This document shows positions 1 through 14,865 of a stretch of DNA of 21,014 nucleotides, one piece after another. How positions within the stretch are numbered: position 1 is the first letter of the stretch; each line of letters opens with the position of its first letter. This stretch comes from a virus. The stretch spans positions 1-21,014 of the IMG/VR virus record IMGVR_UViG_3300037189_020766; one strand, given 5' to 3'. Position numbers and translations under genes: made by a program. The notes beneath the pieces were generated by a model. The model was not told the origin of the DNA. It worked only from the letters and a program-made list of their open reading frames with translations, and made no database searches.

Positions 1-1
1 A

Positions 2-262
2 CTATTAACCCAATATGCACAGGGCCGTATAGTTCCTATTGAACTGTATCTATCTGAAGATCGTGGTTTTGAATATGGCACATATGTGTGCGTGGTTGAT
101 CAAGAGTTTTTGACTCTAGCATCAAAGACTGTATGTTGGGCAGAGTTAGATTACTTACCCAAACAACTACATTCTGGACTACGCACCACATTAAATAATC
201 AAGTAATACGTGTAAAAATAGAAACTGTAATGGAGTTAATAAAAAATGCTGCAACAAACTGA
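2..262 (+). CDS. Hypothetical protein, 5' end outside window
   Basis: This is an open frame from the first bases of the window (frame 2) to a TGA at 260-262, giving the last 86 residues of a protein. The visible part begins LLTQYAQGRIVPIELYLSED and ends ELIKNAATN. It is a mixed alpha/beta soluble sequence with no signal peptide, membrane segment or motif that I recognise. Its reality is supported by continuous coding across the edge and by a 17-base overlap with the next gene on the same strand, an arrangement typical of compact phage genomes. I cannot assign a function. Confidence 0.6.
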   Translation, partial: LLTQYAQGRIVPIELYLSEDRGFEYGTYVCVVDQEFLTLASKTVCWAELDYLPKQLHSGLRTTLNNQVIRVKIETVMELIKNAATN

Positions 263-506
263 CAGATTTAAAAACGACCTAGATCGATACAATAGTGCTA
301 TAGATAAAATTTCCAATGAACAGGAAAAATTAGCAGCAAAAAAATTGCTCAATGACTTGATCTATGAAGTTAAAAACATGGACAACATGTATGTAGACAT
401 GGTTTACGCCAAACAATTACCTACCATGGGTAATGACATGCGTGAAAAAATAGTGTCTATTAGAAAAAAATTAGAAACTAAAATTAAAGATTGGACCCAA
501 TCTTAA
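246..506 (+). CDS. Small helical hypothetical protein
   Basis: An 86-residue, highly charged protein, predicted by eye to be almost entirely alpha-helical. Heptad-like spacing of Leu/Ile/Val in residues 5-45 and 66-83 (for example MREKIVSIRKKLETKIKDW) suggests a coiled coil or helical hairpin. It has no membrane segment, no cysteine and no enzyme motif. The ATG lies inside the end of the preceding gene (17-base overlap), so translation is probably coupled. A 38-base gap separates it from the halogenase cassette, so it may belong to the upstream unit rather than the cassette. Short helical proteins of this kind are common, without known function, in marine T4-like phages; that comparison is from memory. 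Confidence 0.65.
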   Translation: MLQQTDRFKNDLDRYNSAIDKISNEQEKLAAKKLLNDLIYEVKNMDNMYVDMVYAKQLPTMGNDMREKIVSIRKKLETKIKDWTQS

Positions 507-544
507 CAAGAATACATGACTAGTCTTCTGAGAATATTTTTGAT

Positions 545-2062
545 ATGACCGACTCAAATAATGAGAAAATTCGCATTGTAATAGTGGGCGGCGGGACAGC
601 CGGCTGGCTCACAGCATTCTCAATTTCGACTATTAGAAAAGATGTTGCTTGTATCTCAATAGATAGTTCTAAATTAGGGGCAATCGGAGTGGGGGAAGGA
701 ACTACTGGTTTATTTTTAGACTATCTCACTGATCTAGGATTAGACTTTGACGAGATAATTAGAGAAACAAATGCTTTGCCAAAATATGGAATTAATTTTA
801 TCAACTGGACCGGAGATCAATCCAGTTATATTTCGCCGATTGATGGGTCGTATTTTCCAAGCAGTGCGCTTGACACACTATTTTTTGGTTCGCTTGCTTT
901 TGATAAAGATATAAATTTGACCAGCCGGTGTTCGACATTAATTAAAAATAAGTCTACTGATTTGTTTTTAACGAATGGAAAAGTTTCAAAAAAGTTTTCT
1001 TATCCTGCGTTACATCTAGATACATTTAAAACCATCGAATATCTTAAAAAGAAAAGTATGAATAATGGTTGTGAATTTGTTGACAGCGAAGTTGTGTCTG
1101 TAAATCTAGACACCGCAGGCAATATTCAATCGCTATCTATGAGTAACGGTAGTACAATTTCTGGAGATTTATTCATCGACTGTACTGGATTTGGTCAAGT
1201 GTTAATTAGCAAACTTAATCCTACGTGGATCGACTATTCTAACTATCTCCCAGTCGACTGTGCATTAACTTTTAAAGTTGATAACGACTCTGCTGAAAAG
1301 AACTTGTATACCACTGCCACTGCACTTAATGATGGCTGGATGTTTGAAATTCCTACTAGGCAACGGATCGGAAGAGGCTACATTTATTCTAGCAAGTTTG
1401 CAGACGAACAAAAGATTATTAAGGAACTAGAAGATAGGTTTCAATCAAACATTCACAAAGTTAAATCTATTAAATTTGATTCAGGCAGATTAAAAAATTC
1501 TTGGGTTAAAAATTGCATAGCTATAGGTCTATCATCGGCATTCTTAGAACCATTGCAGGCCACAAGCATTCATTGTACCATAATACAAATTAGAGATTTT
1601 ATTTTAAATTGTCTTGCTGATACTGCTGATAACAGCTTGGATCCTGTTATTGTGGAATCTCATAATAACCGAATTTCTAAACTTTATCAAGGAATGGTTG
1701 ATTTTATATCTATGCACTATAGCGGGGGGCGAACGGATACAGAATTTTGGAAATATATTTCAAATAATGTAAAACGAACTCCCAAAGCATCTGAAATAAT
1801 TCATTTATCAACTTGTAGATTGCCTCGTCAATGTGACTTCGATGTCCATGTGGGATTTGCCGGTCCTAACTTGTGGAACTATTCGCTTAACGGACTTGGT
1901 CATTTTAAAAAAGATGTTTTAGAAAAAATAACAAGGCTGGCAAATATAAATCCAAGTTATATTAATAATGCAATTGCACATTATTACAAGGAAACACAGG
2001 TACTAACTGCTGGCTGTTTTAATATAGATCAACTGATTAACGAATTAGAAAAGAAAGCATAA
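545..2062 (+). CDS. Flavin-dependent halogenase-family protein 1, altered active site
   Basis: A 505-residue member of the tryptophan-halogenase family. These enzymes use FADH2, O2 and halide to make HOCl or HOBr, which a lysine relays to an electron-rich substrate. Visible features are the FAD loop VGGGTAGW (residues 14-21), GEGTTG near 50-55, the relay lysine K80 in ALPKYGINF, and RTDTEFWK near the C-terminal helices. Two diagnostic sites deviate. WxWxIP reads WMFEIP (265-270), and the catalytic Glu (PrnA Glu346) is Gln338 in EPLQATS, codon CAG at 1556-1558. Length is normal and the frame intact, so this is not a pseudogene by decay. It closely resembles the protein at 2690-4198 (shared TTATA, RIG, KNCI and RTDT blocks), suggesting duplication. 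Its stop overlaps the next start (TAATG). It may be a slowed enzyme, a substrate-binding partner or a flavoprotein with another reaction. A weak GAGA ribosome site lies about 11 bases upstream. Confidence 0.85.
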   Translation: MTDSNNEKIRIVIVGGGTAGWLTAFSISTIRKDVACISIDSSKLGAIGVGEGTTGLFLDYLTDLGLDFDEIIRETNALPKYGINFINWTGDQSSYISPIDGSYFPSSALDTLFFGSLAFDKDINLTSRCSTLIKNKSTDLFLTNGKVSKKFSYPALHLDTFKTIEYLKKKSMNNGCEFVDSEVVSVNLDTAGNIQSLSMSNGSTISGDLFIDCTGFGQVLISKLNPTWIDYSNYLPVDCALTFKVDNDSAEKNLYTTATALNDGWMFEIPTRQRIGRGYIYSSKFADEQKIIKELEDRFQSNIHKVKSIKFDSGRLKNSWVKNCIAIGLSSAFLEPLQATSIHCTIIQIRDFILNCLADTADNSLDPVIVESHNNRISKLYQGMVDFISMHYSGGRTDTEFWKYISNNVKRTPKASEIIHLSTCRLPRQCDFDVHVGFAGPNLWNYSLNGLGHFKKDVLEKITRLANINPSYINNAIAHYYKETQVLTAGCFNIDQLINELEKKA

Positions 2063-2688
2063 TGACTACACACCATTTTAACAACCTAGGGTTTTATGAA
2101 ACGACTCTAACTCTCGAACAACTGCAACCAGTCTGGGATGAAATTAATGAAATTCAAAAAGACTTTGATAGCGCAACACCCTTTCATTCGGGACTTGTTG
2201 GATTAATTAAAAAAGAATATCTATTAGAAAAATGTCAGACACATTTAGAAAATATTGTGTTGCCTCATATTTTTGACTATCATAAAGAATTTGCATATCC
2301 TGGAAATTTATCGTTAACTCGAGGAAATCATAAACTAGCCATCGATTATCCGTGGGTTAATTTTATGAGCAAACATGAATCAAATCCCGCTCATAATCAC
2401 AGCGGTATTATGAGTTTTGTTATCTGGCTTAAGATTCCATACACTATGGAACAAGAGCATGCTCACTTGTCAGAGTTAGATCCGAATAAAAATGCCGCAG
2501 GTGCGTTTTCATTTGTTTATACTAACTCTGTTGGGCAGATTCAACAAACATTTTTACCTGTTGATAAAACATGGGAAAATAAATTAATTGTATTTCCTGC
2601 TGCGATGACTCATGCGGTTCATCCGTTTTTTAGCAGTGACGAATATAGAATTTCAGTAGCGGGTAACTTTATCTTGGAAAGCTGTTAA
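2062..2688 (+). CDS. Putative 2-oxoglutarate/Fe(II)-dependent oxygenase 1
   Basis: A 208-residue protein resembling the short 2OG-Fe(II) oxygenases common in cyanophages. The core reads NPAHNHSGIMSFVIWLKIP (residues 109-127), followed by FPAAMTHAVHPFF (178-190) and EYRISVAGNF (194-203). This is the jelly-roll order: metal-binding His region, distal His, then an Arg that would bind the 2-oxoglutarate carboxylate (R196). The first motif is H111-x-H113 rather than the canonical H-x-D, so the facial triad may be atypical or the acidic ligand may lie elsewhere. H184 is the likely distal ligand. The gene starts in the stop of halogenase 1 (TAATG) and ends one base before halogenase 2, so the three are probably made together. 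Its substrate is unknown; hydroxylation of the same substrate as the halogenases is an inference from position. Confidence 0.72.
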   Translation: MTTHHFNNLGFYETTLTLEQLQPVWDEINEIQKDFDSATPFHSGLVGLIKKEYLLEKCQTHLENIVLPHIFDYHKEFAYPGNLSLTRGNHKLAIDYPWVNFMSKHESNPAHNHSGIMSFVIWLKIPYTMEQEHAHLSELDPNKNAAGAFSFVYTNSVGQIQQTFLPVDKTWENKLIVFPAAMTHAVHPFFSSDEYRISVAGNFILESC

Positions 2689-2689
2689 G

Positions 2690-4198
2690 ATGAAAAATAA
2701 AAAAATTACAATTGTTGGTGGTGGTACTGCTGGATGGTTAACTTCACTGTATATACAAAAACTATTACCGTATGCTAACATCACCGTTATTGAAAGTGAC
2801 GAGATAGGAATCTTAGGTGCCGGCGAAGGGACAACACCTAACATCATTGACTGTTTAAATTTTTTAGATATTGACTACAAAGATGTTATCAAAGAAACAC
2901 ACGGCAGTTTAAAAATAGCTATAAAATTTGAAAATTGGAATAAAGAACAGTCTTATTATTATCATCCTTTTTTAGTAACTAACCCACAACTATCAGAATT
3001 TAATTATGGGCTGAGTCATATTAACGATCAGGGTGGGTTCTTAAGCTACAGCATGATTGCAAATAATACAACTGTTGGTCGCAATACCGCCTTTTGCCAC
3101 TATGCCGATAACAACAAAAGTCCGTTTTTCATGCATGATGGCAAACTAACTAATGTCGGGCTATTTGCGTTACATTTTGATGCTAGACTATTAGCCAAAT
3201 ATTTAAGATCTGTTGCCGAGTCTCGAGGAATTGATCGAGTCGAAGGAAATGTTAAAGGCTTTAATGATAGTGATGGATTTATTAATAAGATTACTCTAGA
3301 AAATAACTCTACCGTTGAGTGTGATTTTGTTTTTGACTGCTCCGGGTTTCAGAGATTAATTATTGGAAAATTTCATAAGTCACGATGGAAAAGCTACAAA
3401 GAGTTTCTTCCGGTAGATTCAGCTTTAGCATTTTTCTTACCAACAGAAACCACTACTAACCCGTATACTACTGCCACAGCAATGAAGTATGGTTGGATGT
3501 GGAAGATTCCATTACAGCATCGAATCGGTTGTGGGTATGTTTACGATAGTTCATTAATCGATGAACATCGAGCCAAAGCAGAGATTGAACAAGAACTTCA
3601 AACAGACATCGAAGTAGTAAAGATTTTTAAATTTGATCCTGGATGTTTTGAGGAGACATGGATTAAAAATTGTATATCCATTGGTGTGTCAACCGGCTTC
3701 ACCGAACCGTTAGAAGCAACTTCAATAATGTTAGCAATTAAGAGTTTAGAAACTTTTAAAAACTACATTATAGGTATAGACAATTTTAATCAAGATATCG
3801 TAGATCAATATAATACTCAAATTTTAGATTTTAATAATCATATCATGGAGTTTTTATATGCGCATTATCTAACTGATCGCACCGACACTGCATTTTGGAA
3901 AAAGTTTTCAGGTAAAAATGCACCTAAAAATCTATCAACAAAACTAAAAATATGGGATCATAAACCAATAACCATAGACGACAGTCGAACTTTTCAATTC
4001 TTCGGTCCGAGTAACTGGATGTGTGTGTTGGACGGATTAGGAAAATTAAAACCAGAAATATATCAACATCATTTGACGTTGCTTGATTTGACTAATAATT
4101 ATGCCAGCGACAATGTTAAGTTAAATTTATCTATTTTTAACAGCGAAAAAATGATGATTGGTCATCAAGAATACTTAAATTATATTAATAGCTTATGA
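2690..4198 (+). CDS. Flavin-dependent halogenase-family protein 2
   Basis: A 502-residue tryptophan-halogenase-family protein with every diagnostic element intact. The FAD loop is VGGGTAGW (residues 9-16), the halide/flavin strand is GAGEGTT (43-49), and relay lysine K75 lies in GSLKIAIKF. The halogenase signature WMWKIP is at 269-274, and the catalytic glutamate is E342 in EPLEATS. RTDTAFWK sits in the C-terminal helical part. Known homologues halogenate tryptophan, indoles, phenols or carrier-bound pyrroles. A viral member, VirX1 of cyanophage Syn10, was reported to prefer iodide and accept many small aromatics. No dedicated flavin reductase is encoded nearby, so FADH2 must come from elsewhere. 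It begins one base after the oxygenase stop and overlaps the next halogenase by four bases (ATGA). It is closer to halogenase 1 than to halogenase 3. Substrate and halide are unknown. Confidence 0.9.
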   Translation: MKNKKITIVGGGTAGWLTSLYIQKLLPYANITVIESDEIGILGAGEGTTPNIIDCLNFLDIDYKDVIKETHGSLKIAIKFENWNKEQSYYYHPFLVTNPQLSEFNYGLSHINDQGGFLSYSMIANNTTVGRNTAFCHYADNNKSPFFMHDGKLTNVGLFALHFDARLLAKYLRSVAESRGIDRVEGNVKGFNDSDGFINKITLENNSTVECDFVFDCSGFQRLIIGKFHKSRWKSYKEFLPVDSALAFFLPTETTTNPYTTATAMKYGWMWKIPLQHRIGCGYVYDSSLIDEHRAKAEIEQELQTDIEVVKIFKFDPGCFEETWIKNCISIGVSTGFTEPLEATSIMLAIKSLETFKNYIIGIDNFNQDIVDQYNTQILDFNNHIMEFLYAHYLTDRTDTAFWKKFSGKNAPKNLSTKLKIWDHKPITIDDSRTFQFFGPSNWMCVLDGLGKLKPEIYQHHLTLLDLTNNYASDNVKLNLSIFNSEKMMIGHQEYLNYINSL

Positions 4199-5775
4199 TA
4201 AAAAATATTAAAAATATTGTGGTTGTCGGGGGCGGCAGTGCTGGGTGGATGTCTGCATCTGCATTGATACGAGCATTTCCAGATTTTAATATCACAGTAA
4301 TTGAAAGCCCAGATATTCCCATAGTTGGTGTTGGAGAGAGTACACTGGGCGGAATTAAAAAGTTCTGCCAATATCTTGATATTGACGAAAAAGATTTTAT
4401 TGCTTATACAGGTGGGTCTTTTAAAATTAGTATTAAGTTCAGTGATTTTTATGAAAAGGACTACGGATCTTTTCATTACCCTTTTGGAAGCCCATTGCTA
4501 AACAACCAGTCAGCAAGCACACAAGATTGGCTGTTAAAGAAGGCAGTTTATCCTGAGATTCCAACCGACGACTTTGTTGATTCCTATTTTGCTTCAGCAG
4601 CATTATTCAAAAACAATAAATTCACATTATCGGATATTGATAATTTTAATCCAAAATCAGATGCTGCTTATCATTTCGATGCAACAAAATTCGGAGCGTG
4701 GTTACGAGATCGATATGCTTGTCCTCGAGGTGTTACGATTATTCAAGACACTGTTGAGAAAATAAACGAAAACGACAATGGTATTAAGGAGTTAGTATTA
4801 AAGTCCGGAGCTACAGTAACGGCAGATTTATTTGTTGATTGCACTGGGTTTAGTAGTCTACTACTCGGGGGATGTCTTAAAGAACCATTTATATCTTTTG
4901 AAGATAAATTGCCGAACAATAGAGCGTGGGCAACTCGAATACCGTTTAAAGATAAAGTAAAAGAACTAGAGCCGTTTACGCATTGCACTGCAATCGACAA
5001 CGGGTGGGTTTGGAATATTCCGCTATGGGCAAGGATCGGAACCGGGTACGTGTACAGTGATAAATTTACCACTCCGGAACTCGCTAAGGAAGAATTTAAA
5101 AACTATCTAATGTCAAACAAAATGATATGTCCTAGAACCAAAGAAGAGGTTGACAATTTAGAGTTTAAAGATATAAAAATGCGTATAGGTATTCATCGTC
5201 AGACCTTTGTGAAAAATGTTGTAGCCATCGGACTTAGTGCAGGATTTATTGAACCACTAGAATCAAACGGGCTGTTTACTGTTCACGAGTTTTTATTTAA
5301 ATTAATTAAGACACTGTTGCGTGGCTCTGTAACGCAGTGGGATCGAGATGTATACAACACCGCAACCTATTTAGAATATAACGCATTTGCTGAGTTTGTG
5401 GCATTACATTACGCATTAAGTATTAGAAACGACACTCCGTATTGGAAACACAATACTTCAAAAGTCTATGATCCCGATATGGTTTTTCAAAATCAGCAGA
5501 ATGCCTCGGCATTTAATCAATTGCATAATAATAAAATGTGGGCGACACCGCCAAAAGAAATTGCCGGTATCACGTATGTTGCTGTCGGTATGAATTATTT
5601 TATTCTAGACAAAGTAAATCAAGTGGTGTATGAAAACGATGCCGGCGTCGACTTTAAGATTAAATATCATCAAGTATTTGACTCGTTAGAAAAAAGAAAA
5701 AAACGATGGAGCGCCTTGGCAGAAAAAGAACTAACTCTATATGAGTTTTTGAAACAAAATTATTACAAAGAATAA
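4195..5775 (+). CDS. Flavin-dependent halogenase-family protein 3
   Basis: A 526-residue tryptophan-halogenase-family protein, the one most like bacterial enzymes. It has the FAD loop VGGGSAGW (residues 11-18), GVGESTLGG (45-53), relay lysine K77 in GGSFKISIKF, signature WVWNIP (271-276), and catalytic E356 in EPLESNG. The last is close to the PrnA/RebH EPLESTG that also forms the halide site. It lacks the shared TTATA and RTDTxFWK wording of halogenases 1 and 2, having RNDTPYWK instead, and it carries extra C-terminal sequence rich in Lys and Glu (about 495-526). It is therefore probably a separate acquisition or an old split rather than a recent copy. Its ATG overlaps the previous stop (ATGA), and the carbamoyltransferase starts one base after its own stop. 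An active FADH2-dependent halogenase is likely; the substrate cannot be predicted. Confidence 0.9.
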   Translation: MIKNIKNIVVVGGGSAGWMSASALIRAFPDFNITVIESPDIPIVGVGESTLGGIKKFCQYLDIDEKDFIAYTGGSFKISIKFSDFYEKDYGSFHYPFGSPLLNNQSASTQDWLLKKAVYPEIPTDDFVDSYFASAALFKNNKFTLSDIDNFNPKSDAAYHFDATKFGAWLRDRYACPRGVTIIQDTVEKINENDNGIKELVLKSGATVTADLFVDCTGFSSLLLGGCLKEPFISFEDKLPNNRAWATRIPFKDKVKELEPFTHCTAIDNGWVWNIPLWARIGTGYVYSDKFTTPELAKEEFKNYLMSNKMICPRTKEEVDNLEFKDIKMRIGIHRQTFVKNVVAIGLSAGFIEPLESNGLFTVHEFLFKLIKTLLRGSVTQWDRDVYNTATYLEYNAFAEFVALHYALSIRNDTPYWKHNTSKVYDPDMVFQNQQNASAFNQLHNNKMWATPPKEIAGITYVAVGMNYFILDKVNQVVYENDAGVDFKIKYHQVFDSLEKRKKRWSALAEKELTLYEFLKQNYYKE

Positions 5776-5776
5776 T

Positions 5777-7417
5777 ATGAGAATACTTGGAGTAAGCCCA
5801 CTACATGACAGCTCTGTTGCAATTATTAACAACGGAGAAATTGAAGTATTTTATAAAGAAGAACGCCTCTCAAAGAAAAAAAGAGATGCAAATCCTTTTC
5901 TTGCGGTTGAACGAGCAATACAAGAAGCCAAAGGCCCCATCGACGGGGCTGTTGTCGGAGCGCCTGCGTGTGATCATCCTGAATTAGTTACTTGGTTAAA
6001 TTACTTAAAAAAGAGAGCAAACGTTCCAGTGGTTCTCGACCTATCGAAAAATCATCATGTACAGCATGCCAGTTTAGCTTTTTATAACAGCGGGTTTGAC
6101 AAAGCAGCGATAATAGTTATTGACCGAAGCGGAACTGTTCATGCTGATTCTTTAAGAGAGTCCGAATCAATTTACGCGGCAAGTTATCCGGCAAACTTTG
6201 TTGAAGTGTATAAACAATACTGGCAAGATGAATTTAAAAGAGAATCTCTAGAGTGGCTCCAGCGTCAAAGTGATAATACCAAATGTGAATATTCTAGCAA
6301 GAGTTTATTTGGTGTAGTTACTGTGTATGAAACAGCAACTACTCTTATCGAACAGCATATTTTAGAAAACGGAAAGACCATGGGATTAGCTTCATACGGC
6401 AATCCGATGGAAAATCCTCCTAAGTTATTTTCACACGATAACATTCCGAATGACATGTTATTTGAAAGAGAGCCGCTTGACGGGTACTGGAGGGCAGCTA
6501 ATCGAAAACTTAGAAAGCATTCTCAGCGATTTATAACAAAAGAAAACTATCAAATGTACGCAGACTACGCTTACCAGGTACAAAAGCAAACACAAGAAGC
6601 AGTGTGTTCGTTGATTAGAAAAGCGATTGAGAAAACAAATTTAAAAAAGATTTGCATAACAGGCGGCTATGGATTGAACATTGTCGCCAATCATTATTAT
6701 ACTACACAGTTTCCCGATGTTGAATTTTACTTTGAACCGCTGGCAGACGACTCCGGCAATAGTATAGGGATGGCAATGTTGTATTATCGCATGGAAACGC
6801 AGGATTCTACTATTAGAAAAATAAAAAATACATTTATACATGGAAAACCTGCAGATTTGTCAATGGTGGAAGGTTCCACTTGCTCGATTATTGATATAGC
6901 TAGGTTACTTGCTGATAATAATAGTGTCGGAGTGTATAACGGTCTCGCAGAAAGCGGTCCAAGAGCACTGGGCAATCGAAGTATTCTGTTTAATCCGCTT
7001 AATCCAGATGCCAAAGATATTGTAAACAAAATTAAAAATCGTGAATGGTACAGACCGTTTGCAGCTATGGTACTTAAAGAAGATGCTTCCATGTATTTTG
7101 ATTTAGGGAATATCAAAGAGTGTCCGTTCATGACTATTAGTTTTCCTGTTTTAGAAAATGCAAGAGAGTTAATATCTGGAGTAGTTCATGCTGACAACAC
7201 ATGTCGTATACAAACAGTATCGGATGAAGACGGACACATATACGAACTGTTAAAAGAGTTTAAGAAAGTATCAGGACACGGAGTATTACTTAACACTAGT
7301 TTTAATCTAGCTGGACAACCGCTCATCGAAGAACCAAATGAAGCATTAGAAATATTGCATAAATCTAATCTTGACGTTGTATGGTTCCCCGAAATTAACA
7401 AAATGGTAGGGAACTAA
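5777..7417 (+). CDS. NodU/TobZ-family O-carbamoyltransferase
   Basis: A 546-residue carbamoyltransferase of the NodU/CmcH/TobZ family. These enzymes use carbamoyl phosphate and ATP, through carbamoyl-adenylate, to carbamoylate a hydroxyl on a sugar or small molecule. The N-terminal Kae1-like part begins ILGVSPLHDSSVAII and has the metal-binding NHHVQHA motif (residues 92-98), then GGYGLN (296-301) and ADDSGNSIG (323-331). The C-terminal YrdC-like part has ESGPRALGNRSIL (392-404), WYRPFAA (424-430), DNTCRIQTV (473-481) and a late NTSFN...GQP block. Length matches the family (about 550-600). It sits one base after halogenase 3 and two bases before the next oxygenase. In natural-product clusters such enzymes are late tailoring steps; in phages, relatives have been suggested to modify DNA bases or host glycans. 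Which applies here is unknown. Confidence 0.9.
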   Translation: MRILGVSPLHDSSVAIINNGEIEVFYKEERLSKKKRDANPFLAVERAIQEAKGPIDGAVVGAPACDHPELVTWLNYLKKRANVPVVLDLSKNHHVQHASLAFYNSGFDKAAIIVIDRSGTVHADSLRESESIYAASYPANFVEVYKQYWQDEFKRESLEWLQRQSDNTKCEYSSKSLFGVVTVYETATTLIEQHILENGKTMGLASYGNPMENPPKLFSHDNIPNDMLFEREPLDGYWRAANRKLRKHSQRFITKENYQMYADYAYQVQKQTQEAVCSLIRKAIEKTNLKKICITGGYGLNIVANHYYTTQFPDVEFYFEPLADDSGNSIGMAMLYYRMETQDSTIRKIKNTFIHGKPADLSMVEGSTCSIIDIARLLADNNSVGVYNGLAESGPRALGNRSILFNPLNPDAKDIVNKIKNREWYRPFAAMVLKEDASMYFDLGNIKECPFMTISFPVLENARELISGVVHADNTCRIQTVSDEDGHIYELLKEFKKVSGHGVLLNTSFNLAGQPLIEEPNEALEILHKSNLDVVWFPEINKMVGN

Positions 7418-7418
7418 T

Positions 7419-7988
7419 ATGGCAAAATACACTGTAATAAGGAATCTAATTAGAGAAGACATTTGTCTTGAAATGTCTAAACAAATGTGGCTGGAGGAAA
7501 GAAAACGCCCCGGCATATTCGGAGATGCTCTTTGTCCAACTACATCGTCTTTTTATAATTTGTATCCTTCAATACTAGCATTATGCCACTCGTCGGTTGA
7601 AAAAGCAGTTGGGGAGGAAATTATACCTAGCTACAACTATTCGAGAATATATCGAAGAGGCGATGATTTAAAAAAACATGTTGATCGAGAATCTTGCGAA
7701 ATAAGTTTCACAGTCACATTGGATTATCCATCATCGCCGTGGCTGTTTTATTTTGATGACAACGGTCTTGAAAAAGAAATAATCTTATATAAAGGAGATT
7801 GTCTTATATACGAGGGATGTACAACCAAACATTGGAGACACCCGATGACTCATCAGGATTGGCAGACACAGGGATTTTTTCATTATGTTAGAAAAAACGG
7901 TCAGCATGCAAATCACGCTTATGATCAAGTCTTACTTAAAAGGATGGACCACATGGGTGTAGTACTTAACAACGATGCTATTTTATGA
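7419..7988 (+). CDS. Putative 2-oxoglutarate/Fe(II)-dependent oxygenase 2
   Basis: A 189-residue protein with a prolyl-4-hydroxylase-like double-stranded beta-helix core. YSRIYRRGDDLKKHVDRESC (residues 74-93) contains the H87-x-D89 metal pair, followed by EISFTVTLDY. The strand GDCLIYEG (126-133) leads to the distal His in KHWRHP (H138, less likely H141), and QGFFHYV follows. The usual final Arg that binds 2-oxoglutarate is not obvious, although the HWRHP region supplies an Arg. Small proteins with the GDxxIYxG...HWR order are annotated as 2OG oxygenases in many phages and bacteria (from memory). It starts one base after the carbamoyltransferase stop and overlaps the next oxygenase by four bases (ATGA), which places it in the same unit. 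Substrate unknown. Confidence 0.72.
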   Translation: MAKYTVIRNLIREDICLEMSKQMWLEERKRPGIFGDALCPTTSSFYNLYPSILALCHSSVEKAVGEEIIPSYNYSRIYRRGDDLKKHVDRESCEISFTVTLDYPSSPWLFYFDDNGLEKEIILYKGDCLIYEGCTTKHWRHPMTHQDWQTQGFFHYVRKNGQHANHAYDQVLLKRMDHMGVVLNNDAIL

Positions 7989-8524
7989 ACGAATCTTTAA
8001 ATTTAGTAGCTGTTGAAAATCTGTTATCGGCACAAGAGTGTGACCTGCTTATAAAACATTTAGACCGTGATTATGTGGCAGGCGAAACTGAAGATAATTC
8101 ATCCCAAGCAAGAGTTGTTGAAATATCGACAACGACAATTCCTAACGAATTAATTGAAAGAATTGTTAACATAGTTTCAAAACTAAATTTAAAGCATTAT
8201 AATTTTAACATAACAGGATTTCATCCTTGCGATCCTGTACTAATGTTTAAATATACATCAACGAATAATGCTCATTACGATTGGCATAACGATTTTGTTT
8301 ACGACGAAGGCTCTACTCGAAAATTAAGTTTTTCAATCCAGTTATCAGACCCTCAAACTTATAAAGGTGGGTCTTTGCAATTTATTCCTAATATAACTCA
8401 CTCATGCATTGATCAAGGATCGATAGTGGTATTTCCCTCTTACCTTGCGCATTGTGTAATTCCGGTTACAGAAGGTAATCGATACTGTATTGTTGGTTGG
8501 GCGCATGGCCCTGCGTTTAGGTAA
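7985..8524 (+). CDS. Putative 2-oxoglutarate/Fe(II)-dependent oxygenase 3 (PKHD/P4H-like)
   Basis: A 179-residue oxygenase with a complete facial triad: H101 and D103 in YDWHNDF, and H156 in FPSYLAHCVIPV. R166 in the EGNRY block would bind 2-oxoglutarate. The middle strand YKGGSLQF matches the GGxLxF strand of prolyl-4-hydroxylase and PiuC/PKHD-type hydroxylases, and FPS...H...PVT.G.RY is their usual C-terminal pattern. The N-terminal 75 residues are helical and probably form the family's support domain. It is the last gene of the plus-strand cassette. Its ATG overlaps the previous stop, and its own stop (TAA, 8522-8524) touches the stop of the convergent gene at 8525. Prolyl-hydroxylase-like folds act on peptidyl residues or free small molecules; the target is unknown. 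It resembles the convergent oxygenase at 8525-9064. Confidence 0.82.
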   Translation: MNESLNLVAVENLLSAQECDLLIKHLDRDYVAGETEDNSSQARVVEISTTTIPNELIERIVNIVSKLNLKHYNFNITGFHPCDPVLMFKYTSTNNAHYDWHNDFVYDEGSTRKLSFSIQLSDPQTYKGGSLQFIPNITHSCIDQGSIVVFPSYLAHCVIPVTEGNRYCIVGWAHGPAFR

Positions 8525-9064
8525 TTAAAAACACCACATAACCCACGTATATCTAACACCTTTAGTTACAGGTGTTACTTCGTGTGGCCAAGGAAATGCC
8601 GATGGAAACACCAGAACACTGTTAGTCGGCAATTTATAAGAAACAGATTCGCCGCCTAAGTTAAAAACAAGCTCGCCTCCTTCATAATTATCGTTTAAAA
8701 AACCAATAATACTGAGTATCGGAATTCCTTTATAGTATCCATCAAACACTGAATGTATGTGATCAAAATGCATTTCCATTTTTTGACCTTCGGAATATTT
8801 GTTAAAGCGAACTCCGGACGCTCCTCGAATTGGCACTTCAAATTCTACAGAATATTGATAGACAACTTTCTTTGCCCACTCAGTTACAATGTCTTTGATT
8901 TTTATATCTTCGCAGATTACCGTGTCCATATTTTGATATGCTGTAACTGTTGCATGATTGTCGGTCCAAGACCCAGGCGTTGTCTTAGACGACTCCAGCA
9001 GTGTTAGCACTCTCGAATCGTCTTCAACATTATATACTTTGATATAATCTTTCAGTAGTTTCAT
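8525..9064 (-). CDS. Putative 2-oxoglutarate/Fe(II)-dependent oxygenase 4 (PKHD/P4H-like)
   Basis: A 179-residue protein with a full 2OG-Fe(II) signature: H99 and D101 in MHFDHIHS, the strand YEGGELVF (127-134), distal H161 in PWPHEVTPVTKG, and R171 in GVRYTWVMW. The order and wording match the prolyl-4-hydroxylase/PKHD group and resemble the oxygenase that ends one base away on the other strand. It is the last gene of the minus-strand block and overlaps the upstream DUF6065-like gene by four bases (ATGA), so it is probably co-translated with those paralogues. This ties a hydroxylase to the unknown family as well as to the plus-strand cassette. Substrate unknown. An annotation as a small structural protein is unlikely given the complete triad. 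Confidence 0.82.
   Translation of the reverse strand: MKLLKDYIKVYNVEDDSRVLTLLESSKTTPGSWTDNHATVTAYQNMDTVICEDIKIKDIVTEWAKKVVYQYSVEFEVPIRGASGVRFNKYSEGQKMEMHFDHIHSVFDGYYKGIPILSIIGFLNDNYEGGELVFNLGGESVSYKLPTNSVLVFPSAFPWPHEVTPVTKGVRYTWVMWCF
8554..8577. other. 8-bp perfect inverted repeat at the convergent gene junction
   Basis: TAACACCT (8554-8561) and AGGTGTTA (8570-8577) are perfect reverse complements around an 8-base loop. The hairpin lies 30 bases after the plus-strand stop and inside the 3' end of the opposing oxygenase gene. There is no immediate T run on either side, so it is not a textbook intrinsic terminator. It could act as a 3'-end stabilising hairpin or a weak bidirectional terminator, or it could be chance within coding sequence. 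Confidence 0.3.
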
Positions 9065-9822
9065 TTTTTAGAAAAATATTTCTGAGCCACACTGGCTATA
9101 GCTTTATAATTTGGAATAAATGTATTATGTCTTCTATACTGATGAAATTGTGACCAAGATTGTTCTCTAACTGTAGATTCACGGACTTCAAACTCACCGT
9201 CTGACAGTTTCACTGGTAATAGAAAGCACAAGGGAGTTCCCGCCTTGATTAATTCAGTTCCGTTCAAGACATGCCAAAATAAGGGAATAGTTATTTGGTT
9301 ATTAGTGTTAGGATCAAAAATTCCAGTACAAGATGAAAATCTAGTTTCGTCTGTATACGGTATATTTGTTTGTAATAAACTCCAACCTTTTGGTAATTTT
9401 ACACTCCAGCCTGTTGTAATTTTAACAATGTCTCTATGACAAGCCCTAGCCTCGATTACACAATTATCATAAAAGTCAGTAAGATTTACTGGATCGTGTG
9501 TTTGAATTGATTCTTGATTGCCTAAAAAAATATCTTTATTTGGAAATACTGCATCGGTGTATCTACCATTGGAAAGCGGTGTGGAAGAGGTAGTTACTTT
9601 AAAGTCGTACCATGTACTAACTATAAATCCGTGTTTAAAAGGAGTAAAAATTCCAGGACAGCGTAGCGTATTAACACAGTCGGGTTTTTTATTTTTAAAA
9701 AACGCTTTCATGCGTTCTGCCCAATTAAATTTAACCTGTCTCGCTGATTCGATTGGGTGCGAATATAGTGCATTTACATTATCAGAATAAAATTCAATTT
9801 TTTCTTTTTTCTTAAAGAACAT
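9061..9822 (-). CDS. DUF6065-like protein, paralogue C
   Basis: A 253-residue soluble protein and the most divergent of three tandem paralogues. Shared landmarks are FYSDNV near the N-terminus, RCPGIFTPFKHGFIVSTWYD (residues 54-73), LPKGWSLL (143-150), ETRFSSCTGIF (158-168), LFWHVLNGTELIKAGTPLC (182-200) and a following hydrophobic LLPV. The pairing of a CxxI...HGW/GF segment with a GWSL...RF...G...W...F/L...GTPxCxxxP segment recalls bacterial DUF6065 proteins, as I remember them; I cannot confirm membership. It has no signal peptide or membrane helix. Residues 200-253 are paralogue-specific and rich in Gln, Arg and Tyr. Its ATG overlaps the upstream paralogue by 11 bases, with TAGGAAT as a ribosome site. 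Function unknown. Confidence 0.75.
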   Translation of the reverse strand: MFFKKKEKIEFYSDNVNALYSHPIESARQVKFNWAERMKAFFKNKKPDCVNTLRCPGIFTPFKHGFIVSTWYDFKVTTSSTPLSNGRYTDAVFPNKDIFLGNQESIQTHDPVNLTDFYDNCVIEARACHRDIVKITTGWSVKLPKGWSLLQTNIPYTDETRFSSCTGIFDPNTNNQITIPLFWHVLNGTELIKAGTPLCFLLPVKLSDGEFEVRESTVREQSWSQFHQYRRHNTFIPNYKAIASVAQKYFSKK

Positions 9823-10555
9823 TCGGATTCCTAGTAAATGTACAACCCTTTCTATAGAAAAAACTTTCTTGTTTTTTTTTAATTTCGGCAGTGGATTCTA
9901 AGCATTCTCCGTTAGCATTAAACGAAGAGTCAGGAATAGGAATTAGTTGGCATAACGGAGTACCTGCTTTGATTAACGTTTCTCCTTTGGTGTAATTCCA
10001 AAAGAGTTGAGGATTTACTTCTACTAAAGACCCCGATTTTAACATCCCAGTTGAACACTGAAATCGAGTTTCTCCAGAATAAGGAGTTGGTATCATTAGT
10101 AAATTCCATCCTGGCGGAATATCAACTACCCACGGCATGGTTATCTTTACCAGAAGCTTTGAGGTGTATTCAGGCAACGGGATAGATAATTCCGGAGACC
10201 CCATATTCATAAACTTTATTAAATCTCCAGGAGGAATTGCTTGCGAAATTGCACCAGGTAATGTTGATGGTACTTTCCAACTAGCAGTTTCTCGATTGTT
10301 TGCTTCTATTATAAAATCAAACCATGAAGTTACGATCCATCCAAGTTTTCCTAGTTCGTTTATACCAGGACATTTGCTGACACTCGAAAGTTGATGTCCA
10401 AAATTAGAAATTGTACTAGTTTTTTGTTTGTAAGCATCAACAGCTGATTTCATCCAACTAGGCCTATTAGCTGTTGCTGGAATAATCGGAAACATTTCTG
10501 TAACGCCAGGCACAGAAGAGTAAAATTTAAATTTTGGTTTATTAAAGAAATACAT
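9812..10555 (-). CDS. DUF6065-like protein, paralogue B
   Basis: A 247-residue paralogue lying between two relatives. Landmarks are FKFYSSVPGVTEMFPIIPA (residues 8-26), KCPGINELGKLGWIVTSWFD (61-80), IPPGWNLL near 150, ETRFQCSTGML, NPQLFWNYTKGETLIKAGTP and then LCQLIPIPDSS. It is closer to paralogue A (10561-11301) than to C, as the shared FKFYSS, GWIVTSWFDFI and CQLIPIPD blocks show. Six bases separate its start from the stop of A, with only a weak ribosome site (AAGAAA), so coupled re-initiation is likely. The conserved Trp-rich segments suggest a beta-rich binding fold. The C-terminal 30 residues (KKKQESFFYRKGCTF) keep the pattern of a polar run followed by an aromatic Cys motif. No function can be assigned. 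Confidence 0.78.
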   Translation of the reverse strand: MYFFNKPKFKFYSSVPGVTEMFPIIPATANRPSWMKSAVDAYKQKTSTISNFGHQLSSVSKCPGINELGKLGWIVTSWFDFIIEANNRETASWKVPSTLPGAISQAIPPGDLIKFMNMGSPELSIPLPEYTSKLLVKITMPWVVDIPPGWNLLMIPTPYSGETRFQCSTGMLKSGSLVEVNPQLFWNYTKGETLIKAGTPLCQLIPIPDSSFNANGECLESTAEIKKKQESFFYRKGCTFTRNPNVL

Positions 10556-10560
10556 ACTAA

Positions 10561-11301
10561 TTAGTTTCTTAGAAATTTACAGGCTTTTTCAAAAAAGTAG
10601 TGATCTTGTTTTTTAATTTGTTCAGGTGTGTAATCTAAACATTCAAAATCAAAGTTAACTGTCTCGTCGGGAATAGGAATTAATTGACACAGGGGAGTTC
10701 CTGCTTTGACCAATTCAGTTCCGTTAAACTGATGCCAAAACAGTTGTGGGTTAATTTCGCGATCGCCTTGTCGTAAAATTCCTGTTGACGAAGTAAATCT
10801 TATTTCATCTGAATAGCTTACTGGACATAGTAATAGACTCCATCCTTTGGGGATTTCAACTGCCCAGGGTGTTGAGATTTTAATTAGTGTGTCTAACGAC
10901 TGTGGGGGTTTAGGAATTTGCATTTGAGGCAATGACAAATTCATGAAATTAATTAATTTTTTTCCGAATACCGGATGTTTAGTAGTTGTTTCTTCGACTA
11001 GTGTTGGTGGAAGTCGATAGCCTACAGATTTTCCATCATCGGTTGTGTCTATAATAAAATCAAACCACGAAGTTACTATCCAACCAGTTTTACAAGCATT
11101 AAAGATTCCTGGACATTTGATTACTCCGCTGAACGGCTTTCCAAAATTATTAATGTTATCTACAATAGTTTTATATGATGCTGCAACCGGAGGAACCCAT
11201 TTTCTCTTATAGGCACCAGCTGGAATAATAGGAAACTCTTTTGTTACTGCAGGAAGCGATGAGTAAAATTTAAACTTTAAATTTTTTGAGAAAATAGACA
11301 T
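10561..11301 (-). CDS. DUF6065-like protein, paralogue A
   Basis: A 246-residue protein, the first of the three-paralogue array in transcription order. Landmarks are KFKFYSSLPAVTKEFPIIPA (residues 9-28), KCPGIFNACKTGWIVTSWFD (62-81), WAVEIPKGWSLLLCP (146-160), DEIRFTSSTGIL (165-176), INPQLFWHQFNGTELVKAGT (183-202) and PLCQLIPIPDE (203-213). The family resemblance to bacterial DUF6065 is tentative. There is no enzyme motif, signal peptide or transmembrane segment. No clear Shine-Dalgarno precedes the ATG. Instead, a perfect 9-bp inverted repeat (11294-11319) places the start codon in a hairpin, so expression may depend on where the transcript begins. Position after the tail-adhesin genes hints at a virion or adhesin-related role, but this is inference. 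Confidence 0.78.
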   Translation of the reverse strand: MSIFSKNLKFKFYSSLPAVTKEFPIIPAGAYKRKWVPPVAASYKTIVDNINNFGKPFSGVIKCPGIFNACKTGWIVTSWFDFIIDTTDDGKSVGYRLPPTLVEETTTKHPVFGKKLINFMNLSLPQMQIPKPPQSLDTLIKISTPWAVEIPKGWSLLLCPVSYSDEIRFTSSTGILRQGDREINPQLFWHQFNGTELVKAGTPLCQLIPIPDETVNFDFECLDYTPEQIKKQDHYFFEKACKFLRN

Positions 11302-11344: not shown

Positions 11345-11956
11345 TTAGTATTTAATACAGGCCATTACTGCACGATTTCTTGGGAGGGTATTTCCAGTAT
11401 CCCAAGCATAGCCTTGACCGGCCGCAGGTGCTTGCCAACGCCCGCCGAATAAATTTCCAGTATGCGTACCGAATAAATCCTTGCCCATGTAGACCGGACC
11501 GTGACTATACCCGGTTGTATTTGATCCAGTGTTTGTTTGATAAAATCCTTTCCAATCTTGATCTTGAAAACTAGCGAAACCTCGACCACTGTCTACTGTA
11601 CGTCCGTCGTCCCAGCCTCGTATAAATTCGCCTCTAAGGTCGGGCAAGGTAAATGATCCGCCACTACCACCCCAGGTATATCCAATATTAGCAAATAACG
11701 CTGCATAGGTAGTAGTTGATACGCTGGCACCATTGGCTTTGAGCCACCCTGGAGGAACTGTAGTTGTAGCAAATAATTCTATAGCTCCGGTTGGAATTAG
11801 AGGGGTCCAAATTGCTCCATCATAAAACTCAGGAGCACTAATAGATGTATTAAATCTAATCATTCCTGTAGCAGCAGTTGGTCGCTGAGCTGTAGTGCCC
11901 GATGGGAATGTAAATGCTCCCGTGTCGTTAATTGTAATATTTTTTAACGTTGCCAC
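11345..11956 (-). CDS. Tail-collar domain fibre protein C
   Basis: A 203-residue short tail-fibre/receptor-binding protein. The N-terminal part GTTAQRPTAATGMIRFNT (residues 20-37), followed by YDGAIW (45-50), is the usual phage-adhesin shoulder. PTGAIELFATTTVPPGWLKA (55-74) begins the phage tail-collar domain, which runs to LPDLRGEFIRGWDDGR (104-119) with DSGR just after. The C-terminal 60 residues (SHGPVYMGKDLFGTHTGN to PRNRAVMACIKY) form the tip domain shared with the two paralogues. The start is GTG at 11954-11956, supported by AAAAGGAAAG about 6 bases upstream. It acts outside the cell as part of the virion, probably as a trimer at the fibre tip. Unlike its paralogues it has LFATTTVPPGW where they have YFARNSAPDGW. 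Confidence 0.88.
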   Translation of the reverse strand: MATLKNITINDTGAFTFPSGTTAQRPTAATGMIRFNTSISAPEFYDGAIWTPLIPTGAIELFATTTVPPGWLKANGASVSTTTYAALFANIGYTWGGSGGSFTLPDLRGEFIRGWDDGRTVDSGRGFASFQDQDWKGFYQTNTGSNTTGYSHGPVYMGKDLFGTHTGNLFGGRWQAPAAGQGYAWDTGNTLPRNRAVMACIKY

Positions 11957-11968
11957 TGCTCTTTCCTT

Positions 11969-12583
11969 TTAATATTTAATACAAGCTAACAACGACACAT
12001 TTCTAGGACGAATTTCTGATGTGTCCCATGCAGTGCCCCATGCAGAACTAGGAGCAGCCCAGTATCCTGTAAACAAATTTCCAGTATGTGAAGGAAATAT
12101 TGATTTTCCCATATAAACTGGACCATGACTGTATGAAAATGAACCACTAGCAGTGTTGGTCATGTAATACCCTTTCCAGTCTTGAGCCTGTGCTGTTGTA
12201 AGAGCTCTCCCGGAATCAACTCCGCGGCCGTCATCCCACACTCTCGGAAACTCTCCACGAAAGTCGGGAACGTTAAATGTTGCTCCGCCACCACCCCAAG
12301 CATAGCCAATTACTGCAAATAAATTAGCATAGGTTGTGGTTGAAATACCAGCACCATTGGCTTTGAGCCATCCGTCAGGTGCTGAGTTTCTAGCGAAATA
12401 TCTAATAGCGCCAGTTGGAACTAACTCAATCCAGGCAGTACCGTCATACCATTCGTTTTGACTCGTTGTGGTGTTTAATCTAGACATACCCACAACCGGA
12501 CTACCAGGTCGTTGACCAGTAGTCCCAACTGGTAATCTTAAAAACCCAGTATCGTCAACTGTTAATCCTTGTAATATAGCCAC
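11969..12583 (-). CDS. Tail-collar domain fibre protein B
   Basis: A 204-residue paralogue of the flanking collar proteins. It has the adhesin shoulder GTTGQRPGSPVVGMSRLNT, then PTGAIRYFARNSAPDGWLKA and the collar core up to VPDFRGEFPRVWDDGRGVDS. The tip reads SHGPVYMGKSIFPSHTGNLF and ends PRNVSLLACIKY. The start is GTG (12581-12583), preceded by CAAGGATT, a good ribosome site that fixes this start. At DNA level it shares runs with collar protein A, such as GCTGAGTTTCTAGCGAAATA (about 12383-12402) and CCGCGGCCGTCATCCCA, which suggests recent duplication or gene conversion. The most variable parts are the N-terminal 50 residues and the 140-190 tip, as expected of host-recognition proteins. Confidence 0.88.
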   Translation of the reverse strand: MAILQGLTVDDTGFLRLPVGTTGQRPGSPVVGMSRLNTTTSQNEWYDGTAWIELVPTGAIRYFARNSAPDGWLKANGAGISTTTYANLFAVIGYAWGGGGATFNVPDFRGEFPRVWDDGRGVDSGRALTTAQAQDWKGYYMTNTASGSFSYSHGPVYMGKSIFPSHTGNLFTGYWAAPSSAWGTAWDTSEIRPRNVSLLACIKY

Positions 12584-12599: not shown

Positions 12600-12962
12600 T
12601 TAGGTAGGTTTTGGATACTTAGCTTTGACTGCTAGACAATCTGCAATATACTTGTCAACTTGAGCCTGGTCGCCTTTTACGATTGCATCTAGATAGTTAG
12701 TAAACGGGGGATATTCGAAAGATCTAAAATCACTCCAAGTTAACGATTTACTAGGATCTTCAGGAGGTGGTGGAATATCACGGTAAACCCAAGTTTGTGT
12801 TTCTTCATTGAAATTTATAGTTTTTCCCTCGACCGAGTCAGGCGGTGGAAGAACTACGGAATTTCCCGGAACCAGCCAATGTGTGGGATCCAAGGGATCT
12901 TGATCTGCGTCACCTTGTCCGATATATTCAAATGTGTCTGGATGATAATTGTAAATTTTCAT
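12600..12962 (-). CDS. Tail-fibre assembly chaperone-like protein
   Basis: A 120-residue acidic, proline-rich protein. The start MKIYNYHPDTFEYIGQGDAD, the following DPLDPTHWLVPGNSV and PPP, and a later TWVYRDIPPPPEDP run are typical of caudoviral tail-fibre assembly proteins (Tfa/T4 gp38-like, tail-assembly chaperone group). The C-terminal YPPFTNYLDAIVKGD...YIADCLAVKAKYPKP resembles the XkdW-like segment found in many of them. Such proteins help fibres fold and often stay at the tip as adhesin caps. It lies between collar genes A and B with 9- and 16-base gaps, which matches the expected partnership. AAAGGATT is the ribosome site. Which of the neighbouring fibres it serves cannot be told. Confidence 0.78.
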   Translation of the reverse strand: MKIYNYHPDTFEYIGQGDADQDPLDPTHWLVPGNSVVLPPPDSVEGKTINFNEETQTWVYRDIPPPPEDPSKSLTWSDFRSFEYPPFTNYLDAIVKGDQAQVDKYIADCLAVKAKYPKPT

Positions 12963-12971
12963 AATAATCCT

Positions 12972-13586
12972 TTAATATTTAATACAAGCTAAAAGTGCTC
13001 TATTTCTTGGGCGAACTTCTGAACCATCCCAACCGGTACCTGTCGCTGCGGCAGGAGCGGCCCAGTGTCCACCAAAAACGTTACCTGTAAATGTACCAAA
13101 TATAGTTTTGCCCATGTAGACTGGTCCATGGCTGTATGCTGTTGTGTTTGATCCAACGTTGCTTTGATAAAATCCTTTCCAATCTTGTCCTTGCTGGTTG
13201 GCAAAGGCTCGTCCTGAATCCGCTCCGCGGCCGTCATCCCAAGATCTTGGAAACTCGCCTCTGAGATCAGGTACGTTAAATGATCCGCCACTACCGCCCC
13301 AGGCGTAGGCAATGTTGGCAAACAGAGCTGCATAGGTTGTAGTCGATATACTAGCACCGTTGGCCTTAAGCCATCCGTCAGGCGCTGAGTTTCTAGCGAA
13401 ATACATAATAGATCCAGGGGGGTATAACGGATCCCATATTCCGGATGGTTCATAAAGTTCAGGAACACGGGTAGAGGAATTATACCTCAACATACCAGTT
13501 AGCGGTGATGGCCGCTCAGCAGTTGTGCCAATAGGAATTCTTACTGATGTAGTACCTTGTACCGTTGTGTTTAACAGAGTTGCCAT
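12972..13586 (-). CDS. Tail-collar domain fibre protein A
   Basis: A 204-residue collar-domain adhesin. The shoulder GTTAERPSPLTGMLRYNS is followed by YEPSGIWDPLYPPGSI, the collar core SAPDGWLKANGASISTTTYA to VPDLRGEFPRSWDDGRGADS, and the tip SHGPVYMGKTIFGTFTGN to PRNRALLACIKY. Its core resembles collar B in the FARNSAPDGW block but collar C in QDWKGFYQ, SNTTAYSHGP and the GGSGGSF run, so the three look like mosaics of one another. It starts with ATG, with only a weak upstream AAGAG as ribosome site, five bases after the S74 fibre gene; coupled translation is likely. It probably serves as a virion adhesin. Confidence 0.88.
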   Translation of the reverse strand: MATLLNTTVQGTTSVRIPIGTTAERPSPLTGMLRYNSSTRVPELYEPSGIWDPLYPPGSIMYFARNSAPDGWLKANGASISTTTYAALFANIAYAWGGSGGSFNVPDLRGEFPRSWDDGRGADSGRAFANQQGQDWKGFYQSNVGSNTTAYSHGPVYMGKTIFGTFTGNVFGGHWAAPAAATGTGWDGSEVRPRNRALLACIKY

Positions 13587-14502: not shown

Positions 14503-14514
14503 ATTTTATCCGCC

Positions 14515-14844
14515 TTATGCAGTCGATGTTTCAATACCGTAAACAACCACACTTAATGAAGGTGTTGCTGTTGGGGTTTGAACAACTATTAATTTACCAG
14601 CGTCCATTACAATGCCTGTGCGTTCAATAACACCGTTTGCTACCAGTGCTGAATCATATTCGATATATTCAGCAGGTGCCGGTGTTGCCGATGACGCCAC
14701 AGCTATACGTACACTAGCTGATGCGCTTGAGCTGCGATTTACGATGTTTACTGATACTACTGAAAAAGTAGTTGCAGGTACTGTGTACACAGTGGTATCT
14801 GCGGTTGTTGTAATGTTAGCTGTACCTAATCTTCCTGTTGCCAT
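14515..14844 (-). CDS. Small beta-rich virion-associated protein
   Basis: A 109-residue protein that starts MATGRLGTANITTTADTTVY and is made of alternating beta strands rich in Thr, Val and Ser, ending VVVYGIETSTA. The central AEYIEYDSALVANGVIERTG is a recognisable segment of a small protein often found beside fibre and baseplate genes in marine T4-like phages. Its biochemical role is not established to my knowledge. The fold looks like a single beta-sandwich, so a decoration or fibre-attachment role is possible. The ribosome site ACGGAGAAT lies just upstream of the ATG. It sits between the giant structural gene (21-base gap) and the S74 fibre (12-base gap). Confidence 0.75.
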   Translation of the reverse strand: MATGRLGTANITTTADTTVYTVPATTFSVVSVNIVNRSSSASASVRIAVASSATPAPAEYIEYDSALVANGVIERTGIVMDAGKLIVVQTPTATPSLSVVVYGIETSTA

Positions 14845-14865
14845 GTTTGATTCTCCGTAATATAT

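Follow-up and report, generated by a model that had tools for sequence, protein, structure and literature searches.

Why would a marine-type phage carry, one behind the other, genes for three halogenase-family flavoproteins, a carbamoyltransferase and three 2-oxoglutarate (2OG)-Fe(II) oxygenases, and on what would these proteins act? The question is raised by the IMG/VR virus record IMGVR_UViG_3300037189_020766, which was analysed over its complete length of 21,014 bases (the window) and is itself a genome fragment. The list of open reading frames (ORFs) confirms the coordinates and junctions of seven consecutive plus-strand genes described in an earlier note on this DNA: HalA (545-2062), OxyA (2062-2688), HalB (2690-4198), HalC (4195-5775), CarbT (5777-7417), OxyB (7419-7988) and OxyC (7985-8524), which overlap by 1-4 bases or are separated by 1 base. 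HalA, HalB and HalC are Trp-halogenase-family flavoproteins, CarbT is a NodU/TobZ-type carbamoyltransferase, OxyA and OxyC are 2OG oxygenases and OxyB is a probable one. The explanation favoured here, tentatively and at somewhat less than even confidence, is that the genes belong to a late tailoring island, which would covalently decorate tail-fibre or baseplate proteins, or glycans attached to them.

Layout and recurrence of the island

The set does not end with OxyC. OxyC directly abuts a series of convergent minus-strand genes that comprises a fourth oxygenase gene, OxyD (8525-9064), three paralogues of the phrog_7084 family (9061-9822, 9812-10555 and 10561-11301) and genes for tail collar, peptidase-S74 and fibre proteins. 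The seven genes of the earlier note are real, but they are only part of a larger set that is contiguous with tail genes. From OxyD to the tail genes the gaps measure at most 43 bases, and a single weak terminator-like site is present, inside OxyD; by contiguity, OxyD and the phrog_7084 genes are thus considered part of the tail operon. A second contig, IMGVR_UViG_3300032304_001283 (30,404 bases), is 100% identical to the window across 20,555 bases that include the whole cassette, so the gene order cannot be put down to misassembly in a single sample. Full-length families, the tandem and co-directional arrangement and this second identical assembly place the cassette beyond chance. In degenerate-pattern scans, CarbT and phrog_7084 had the identical contig as their sole match.

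Parts of the same arrangement are present in cultured phages. VirX1, the characterised viral iodinating halogenase, corresponds to AGH56623 of phage Syn10 (L198:6425-8017, HQ634191.1), a protein labelled as hypothetical that agrees with the 6qgm sequence. The earlier note had cited VirX1 as a single viral halogenase, which does not hold: in Syn10 (AGH56624-AGH56611), tail genes are followed co-directionally by a flavin-dependent halogenase (FDH, AGH56624), VirX1, phrog_7084 and an array of 2OG oxygenases. P-TIM40 and S-RIM44 share this gene order, also co-directionally, and the S-RIM44 island continues with an OxyB-type gene annotated as ferrochelatase and then the neck protein gp13. The window resembles these islands in its tandem FDHs, followed by phrog_7084 and a 2OG array beside tail genes, and the best match of HalC in the Protein Data Bank (PDB) is VirX1. 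The Syn10-type islands, however, lack CarbT, contain two FDHs instead of three and one phrog_7084 gene instead of three, and run in the direction of the fibre and neck genes, whereas the plus-strand cassette of the window converges with the fibre genes.

A different arrangement is found in S-CAM8 and P-RSM4, where fibre and tail genes are followed by CarbT, an OxyC-type gene, an OxyB-type gene and more oxygenases. As in the window, CarbT adjoins the OxyB and OxyC families near tail-fibre genes, but no FDH or phrog_7084 is annotated there, CarbT is encoded on the strand opposite to the oxygenases, and it belongs to another subgroup (38.9% identity to the window CarbT in S-CAM8). Because cultured cyanophages carry the FDH/phrog_7084/2OG and the CarbT/OxyC/OxyB islands separately, the window merges two modules. 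The Pelagibacter phages HTVC008M and Mosig EXVC030M likewise contain 2OG arrays, with a "ferrochelatase" gene, between fibre and neck genes. They differ from the window in that hidden Markov models (HMMs) detect no phrog_7084 in these stretches, and the single FDH match of HTVC008M is located between gp16 and gp17. Mosig EXVC030M also has a second cluster upstream of its tail genes (L201:1-11300), encoding a hydroxylase, a desaturase, an FMN reductase, a peroxiredoxin and a MoaA-like protein.

To quantify this recurrence, 187 viral loci were gathered by five protein scans and annotated with HMMs derived from the proteins of the window; removing copies of the window's contig left 69 clusters, with the window itself counted. 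FDH and 2OG genes occur together in 43 of the 69 clusters, FDH with at least two 2OG genes in 28, and at least two FDHs in 22; FDH, 2OG and phrog_7084 are combined in 15 clusters, and FDH, 2OG and CarbT in 9. The loci were chosen for encoding an FDH, and these counts thus apply to FDH loci and cannot be extended to phages in general. Circular-shift tests were performed on 32 mostly long FDH-bearing records, 31 besides the window-identical contig, that were searched whole with Pfam and PHROG. PF13640 2OG genes are located within 5 kb of an FDH in 43 of 89 cases against 16.0 expected (P<=2e-4), and in records with several FDHs the ratio rises to 36 of 47 against 11.5 expected. Similarly, 18 of 24 phrog_7084 genes have a 2OG gene no more than 5 kb away (5.9 expected, P<=2e-4), and 5 of 11 CarbT genes have an FDH nearby (1.9 expected, P 0.025). 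The co-occurrence and gene-order search suggested earlier thus recovered a recurring, non-random set with conserved sub-orders in cultured phages, which means that the genes are not each found alone elsewhere.

The content of the islands is mixed and matched, differing from one island to the next. A 50-kb record (G020) carries five FDH genes, and the L108 island contains two FDHs, eight 2OG oxygenases and four phrog_7084 genes. More generally, islands in L107, L108 and L114 comprise 6-10 2OG oxygenases and 3-4 phrog_7084 paralogues per about 10 kb. This variability would also fit unconnected auxiliary genes that accumulate, without a shared target, in a changeable region beside the fibre genes, as would the occurrence of FDHs and CarbTs at other genome positions and the several foreign-gene hot-spots of cyanophage genomes (PMC3037559). 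Such a collection of passengers is rather unlikely, considering that the same families recur, that FDH-FDH-phrog_7084 is fixed in three cultured phages and CarbT with OxyB/OxyC in two, that start and stop codons overlap at the junctions, and that the 2OG enrichment near FDHs is significant. Moreover, the fibre-gp13 interval is not among the four hot-spots listed by Sullivan et al. 2010 (PMC3037559).

Conserved and altered features of the encoded proteins

All seven family assignments of the earlier note are supported by Pfam, PHROG or pattern matches, with the reservation that HalA departs from canonical halogenases. PF04820 matches the three FDHs over nearly their full length at 310-377 bits (cut-off 21), with 310 bits for HalA and 377 for HalB. 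The FAD-binding GxGxxG motif is present as GGGTAGW or GGGSAGW, and the catalytic lysine (PrnA K79 position) is found in HalA, HalB and HalC and in 193 of 194 viral sequences. In HalB (EPLEATS, GWMWKIP) and HalC (EPLESNG, GWVWNIP) the catalytic glutamate (PrnA E346 position) and the WxWxIP motif are intact. HalA instead contains EPLQATS, with glutamine replacing the catalytic glutamate, and GWMFEIP in place of WxWxIP. A Glu-to-Gln change strongly lowers the activity of PrnA; HalA may therefore be weak or perform a different chemistry, and judged by its motifs it is probably no normal halogenase. The same substitution occurs in the HalA of L057 (L057:13332-14759) and in the third FDH of S-RIM44 (L196:9998-11434), so that FDHs of three different phages are perhaps non-halogenating or altered enzymes.

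In a FastTree phylogeny the three FDHs of the window belong to three separate viral clades, and they are thus regarded as old paralogues. The HalA clade comprises 21 viral FDHs, while HalC and VirX1 share a 39-row clade apart from those of HalA and HalB; in the PDB search, HalC matches VirX1 (6qgm) across residues 4-524 with an E-value of 3.2e-98. HalB has 6frl as its best PDB match and the HTVC008M FDH as its best isolate match (41.9%). A HalB scan of genome contigs returned three loci in metagenome-assembled genomes, one of them a weak partial match.

CarbT (PF02543 and PF16861, phrog_1601) has intact N- and C-terminal domains and the motifs HHxxHA and ESGPRALGNRS, and its PDB relatives are TobZ and GdmN. 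By domains and motifs it is a NodU/TobZ-type O-carbamoyltransferase, predicted to transfer a carbamoyl group to a hydroxyl using carbamoyl phosphate and ATP. The closest relative is encoded in L027 (51%), the next in S-SCSM2R (40%).

A pattern search located the iron triad HxD/H...H and the 2OG-binding arginine in OxyA, OxyC and OxyD, which also exceed their Pfam cut-offs. OxyA (PF13759, 40.2 bits; phrog_81) contains HNH at 111-113, a distal histidine and Arg196 in YRIS, OxyC (PF13640, phrog_61) contains HYD/HND, a distal histidine and Arg166, and OxyD (PF13640, 51.8 bits) contains HFD...H...R. OxyB matches phrog_2954 at 147.5 bits, a family labelled "ferrochelatase". Its 2OG Pfam match is sub-threshold (E 0.066), and the HVD motif with a distal histidine is present, with no arginine assigned; this pattern, together with the absence of a ferrochelatase Pfam or NCBIfam match, led to the rejection of "ferrochelatase" as the identity of OxyB. 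From its motifs, the phage family phrog_2954 looks like a misnamed 2OG-type oxygenase in the window and in L191, L200, L201, L257 and L258. The names "DNA endonuclease V" (phrog_274) and "minor coat protein" (phrog_1644), given to several other genes of the islands, may be wrong as well, since these genes also match families of oxygenases.

The phrog_7084 proteins match their family at 121.5 bits (paralogue 1) and 133 bits (paralogue 2), and paralogue 3 is 50% identical to paralogue 2. An AlphaFold (AF2) model of paralogue 2, computed from 29 viral sequences (pLDDT 81.2, pTM 0.79), superimposes on dUTPases with Z-scores up to 11.5 and an rmsd of 2.3 over 119 residues. The top ranks of a Foldseek search with the model are all dUTPases, with a best E-value of only 1.5e-3. 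The model thus points to the monomer beta fold of dUTPase. Among 31 sequences, however, the catalytic RSG motif is absent and the aspartate of the motif-III GVID is not conserved; a dUTPase fold that lacks the catalytic motifs suggests a binding role distinct from dUTPase activity. Bacterial homologues are present in 29 of 398 genomes of the sampled phylum and show weak similarity to DUF6065 only. In 20 loci (L235-L254) no FDH or 2OG gene was found within about 8 kb of them, and the bacterial loci therefore gave no clue to the substrate.

Candidate targets of the island

In Kyanoviridae-like (T4-like) phages, tailoring genes linked to the tail fibre may form one island, of which the cassette would be the half on the plus strand. 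Late in infection, HalB, HalC, the 2OG oxygenases and CarbT would modify residues of the phage's own tail-fibre and collar proteins, or sugars attached to them, with HalA perhaps serving as an accessory or hydroxylating variant. The dUTPase-fold phrog_7084 proteins would act as non-enzymatic binding partners, which select the substrate or gather the enzymes, and the host would supply reduced flavin, 2OG and carbamoyl phosphate. The rings on which FDHs act are aromatic and rich in electrons, and sugars have none of this kind. This chemistry, the location in or against the tail-fibre transcription unit and the paralogue arrays that come without scaffold genes favour a large protein produced late in infection as the substrate, namely the tail-fibre and collar proteins, or their glycans; the many paralogous enzymes per island, as in L108, likewise suit a large substrate with multiple sites. 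The fibre family of the window is present in 13 records, and in all of them the FDHs are located 3' of the fibre genes, the nearest at 4.4-12.5 kb; this count, uncorrected for relatedness, replaced a plain distance test. A bolder version, in which halogenation, hydroxylation and carbamoylation of the phage's own fibres or their glycans via dead dUTPase-fold adaptors form a combinatorial system that chemically diversifies the receptor-binding surface, is doubtful.

Several observations weigh against fibre decoration. The shift test for the distance between FDHs and the phrog_9851 fibre was not significant (P 0.85), a null result attributed to contigs that are short and mostly fibre; the link to the tail is thus drawn from synteny that related phages conserve. 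Records with a single FDH show no significant 2OG enrichment (7 of 42 against 4.7 expected). FDHs also occur elsewhere, beside nrdB and NAD synthetase in P-SSM2 and, as a third copy, beside tRNAs in S-RIM44. The nearest cultured relative of CarbT, that of S-SCSM2R, is located among nucleotide-sugar genes, and no report of a modified tail fibre was found in the literature examined.

The surroundings of CarbT are what an island directed at host envelope glycans, such as lipopolysaccharide (LPS) or O-antigen, or at phage-directed sugars would lead one to expect. CarbT would then carbamoylate a sugar that the oxygenases and FDHs tailor further, and the surface of the infected cell would be altered, for example in superinfection exclusion. 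NodU/TobZ enzymes act on sugar hydroxyls; genes for nucleotide-sugar epimerases and a glycosyltransferase come after the S-SCSM2R gene, a glycosyltransferase lies within a few genes of CarbT in L027, and in P-SSM2 (L259), S-CAM1 (L260) and S-SSM7 (L192) CarbT is located between fibre genes and genes of a heptose-nucleotide pathway. The window, however, contains no glycosyltransferase or other sugar enzyme, no sugar gene is annotated in the stretches examined of the Syn10, P-TIM40 and S-RIM44 islands, and the FDHs would find no aromatic ring in a sugar, which makes a glycan target of this kind unlikely. The heptose genes raise a question of their own, namely whether carbamoyl-heptose decorates fibres or LPS.

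Carbamoylation of a base has a phage precedent: in the MetaGPA study (PMC8670742, eLife 2021), a phage NodU/TobZ-like enzyme carbamoylates 5-hydroxymethylcytosine. Like CarbT, that enzyme is phage-encoded and TobZ-like, but it was found with a thymidylate synthase and its activity was demonstrated on 5-hydroxymethylcytosine. A role of the island in modifying nucleotides, DNA or RNA, for instance in hypermodified bases, with phrog_7084 binding nucleotides, would agree with the dUTPase fold, with the CarbT gene beside ThyX in S-RIM44 and with the established nucleobase hydroxylases among 2OG oxygenases. It is nevertheless improbable, since phrog_7084 lacks RSG and the invariant GVID aspartate, the ThyX-linked CarbT falls outside the group of the window CarbT, the fragment contains no thymidylate-synthase or hydroxymethylase gene, and the island is located by tail genes. 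To our knowledge, no FDH that halogenates nucleobases has been described.

The three enzyme classes all tailor natural products, which would fit a pathway whose target is a small molecule of the host or a metabolite resembling an antibiotic. Phage FDHs have indeed been discussed, speculatively, as lone enzymes that modify host metabolites (PMC10452541) or protect against antibiotics (PMC2984593). The earlier note's statement that no scaffold-building enzyme is present holds within the fragment, which also lacks a transporter or resistance gene. Together with the conserved link to tail genes and the up to ten paralogous oxygenases in the L107 island, excessive for one small molecule, this leaves a metabolite target with little probability. 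The recurrence of the genes as a non-random set supports the earlier proposal in part; all of them may act in one pathway on one target, but the succession of halogenation, hydroxylation and carbamoylation is speculation and HalA is devoid of the catalytic glutamate. Finally, the oxygenases might mainly consume 2OG and thereby tune NtcA signalling, the other genes being incidental, as suggested for cyanophage 2OG oxygenases by Sullivan et al. 2010 (PMC3037559), who named prnA, 2OG oxygenases and carbamoyltransferases singly. This is highly improbable, as it leaves the co-occurrence of FDH, CarbT and phrog_7084 and the diversity of oxygenase families unexplained, and the NtcA link is cyanobacterial, yet related islands are present in the pelagiphages HTVC008M and Mosig EXVC030M.

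In the literature searched, which left out most subscription journals, the island was nowhere found to be treated as one unit, and these genes are unmentioned in the cyanophage transcriptome literature examined. We know of no established natural substrate of viral halogenases such as VirX1. The position of VirX1-type enzymes near tail-fibre genes, in a recurring operon that also encodes another halogenase, a dUTPase-fold partner and an array of oxygenases, provides concrete candidate targets and partners, which can be tested in the cultured phages Syn9, Syn10, S-RIM44 and P-TIM40. If the virion is the target, the island would represent a new phage route to altering receptor-binding proteins. 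The islands are also a rich source of paired halogenases and oxygenases that could serve in biocatalysis.

Tail genes and transcription signals in the window

Beyond the phrog_7084 genes, the minus strand encodes three tail-collar-domain proteins (11345-11956, 11969-12583 and 12972-13586) and a tail-fibre-assembly-like protein (12600-12962), a run matched by phrog_523, phrog_327, phrog_105 and PF07484. A PF07484 collar search was positive in 3 of the 32 records and thus uninformative. These genes are followed by a peptidase-S74 (endosialidase chaperone) tail protein (13591-14502, PF13884) and a small tail protein (14515-14844), assigned by phrog_5668/phrog_11338. Sigma-70 and terminator scans gave results near chance, and the late-promoter pattern TATAAATA is absent from the window. 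A CTAAATA sequence on the minus strand (14863-14869), at the boundary between the fibre and small tail genes, is a possible cyanophage-type late promoter, although the motif is not above chance in frequency (2 matches, 5.9 expected).

No T4 core genes (gp23, gp17, etc.) were recognised in the annotation of the fragment, for which no dedicated test was made. The giant tail fibre (14866-21012, minus strand; phrog_9851, 251 bits) comprises 2,048 amino acids in the window, and its 5' end lies beyond it. Its C-terminal part matches Kyanoviridae fibres, the sole Kyanoviridae link in the fragment. The identical contig IMGVR_UViG_3300032304_001283 extends further upstream and adds the start of the giant fibre and another fibre-family ORF of 1,844 amino acids. 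The G+C content is 0.34-0.39 in the enzyme half of the window (1-10000) and 0.44-0.49 in the fibre part (14000-18000).

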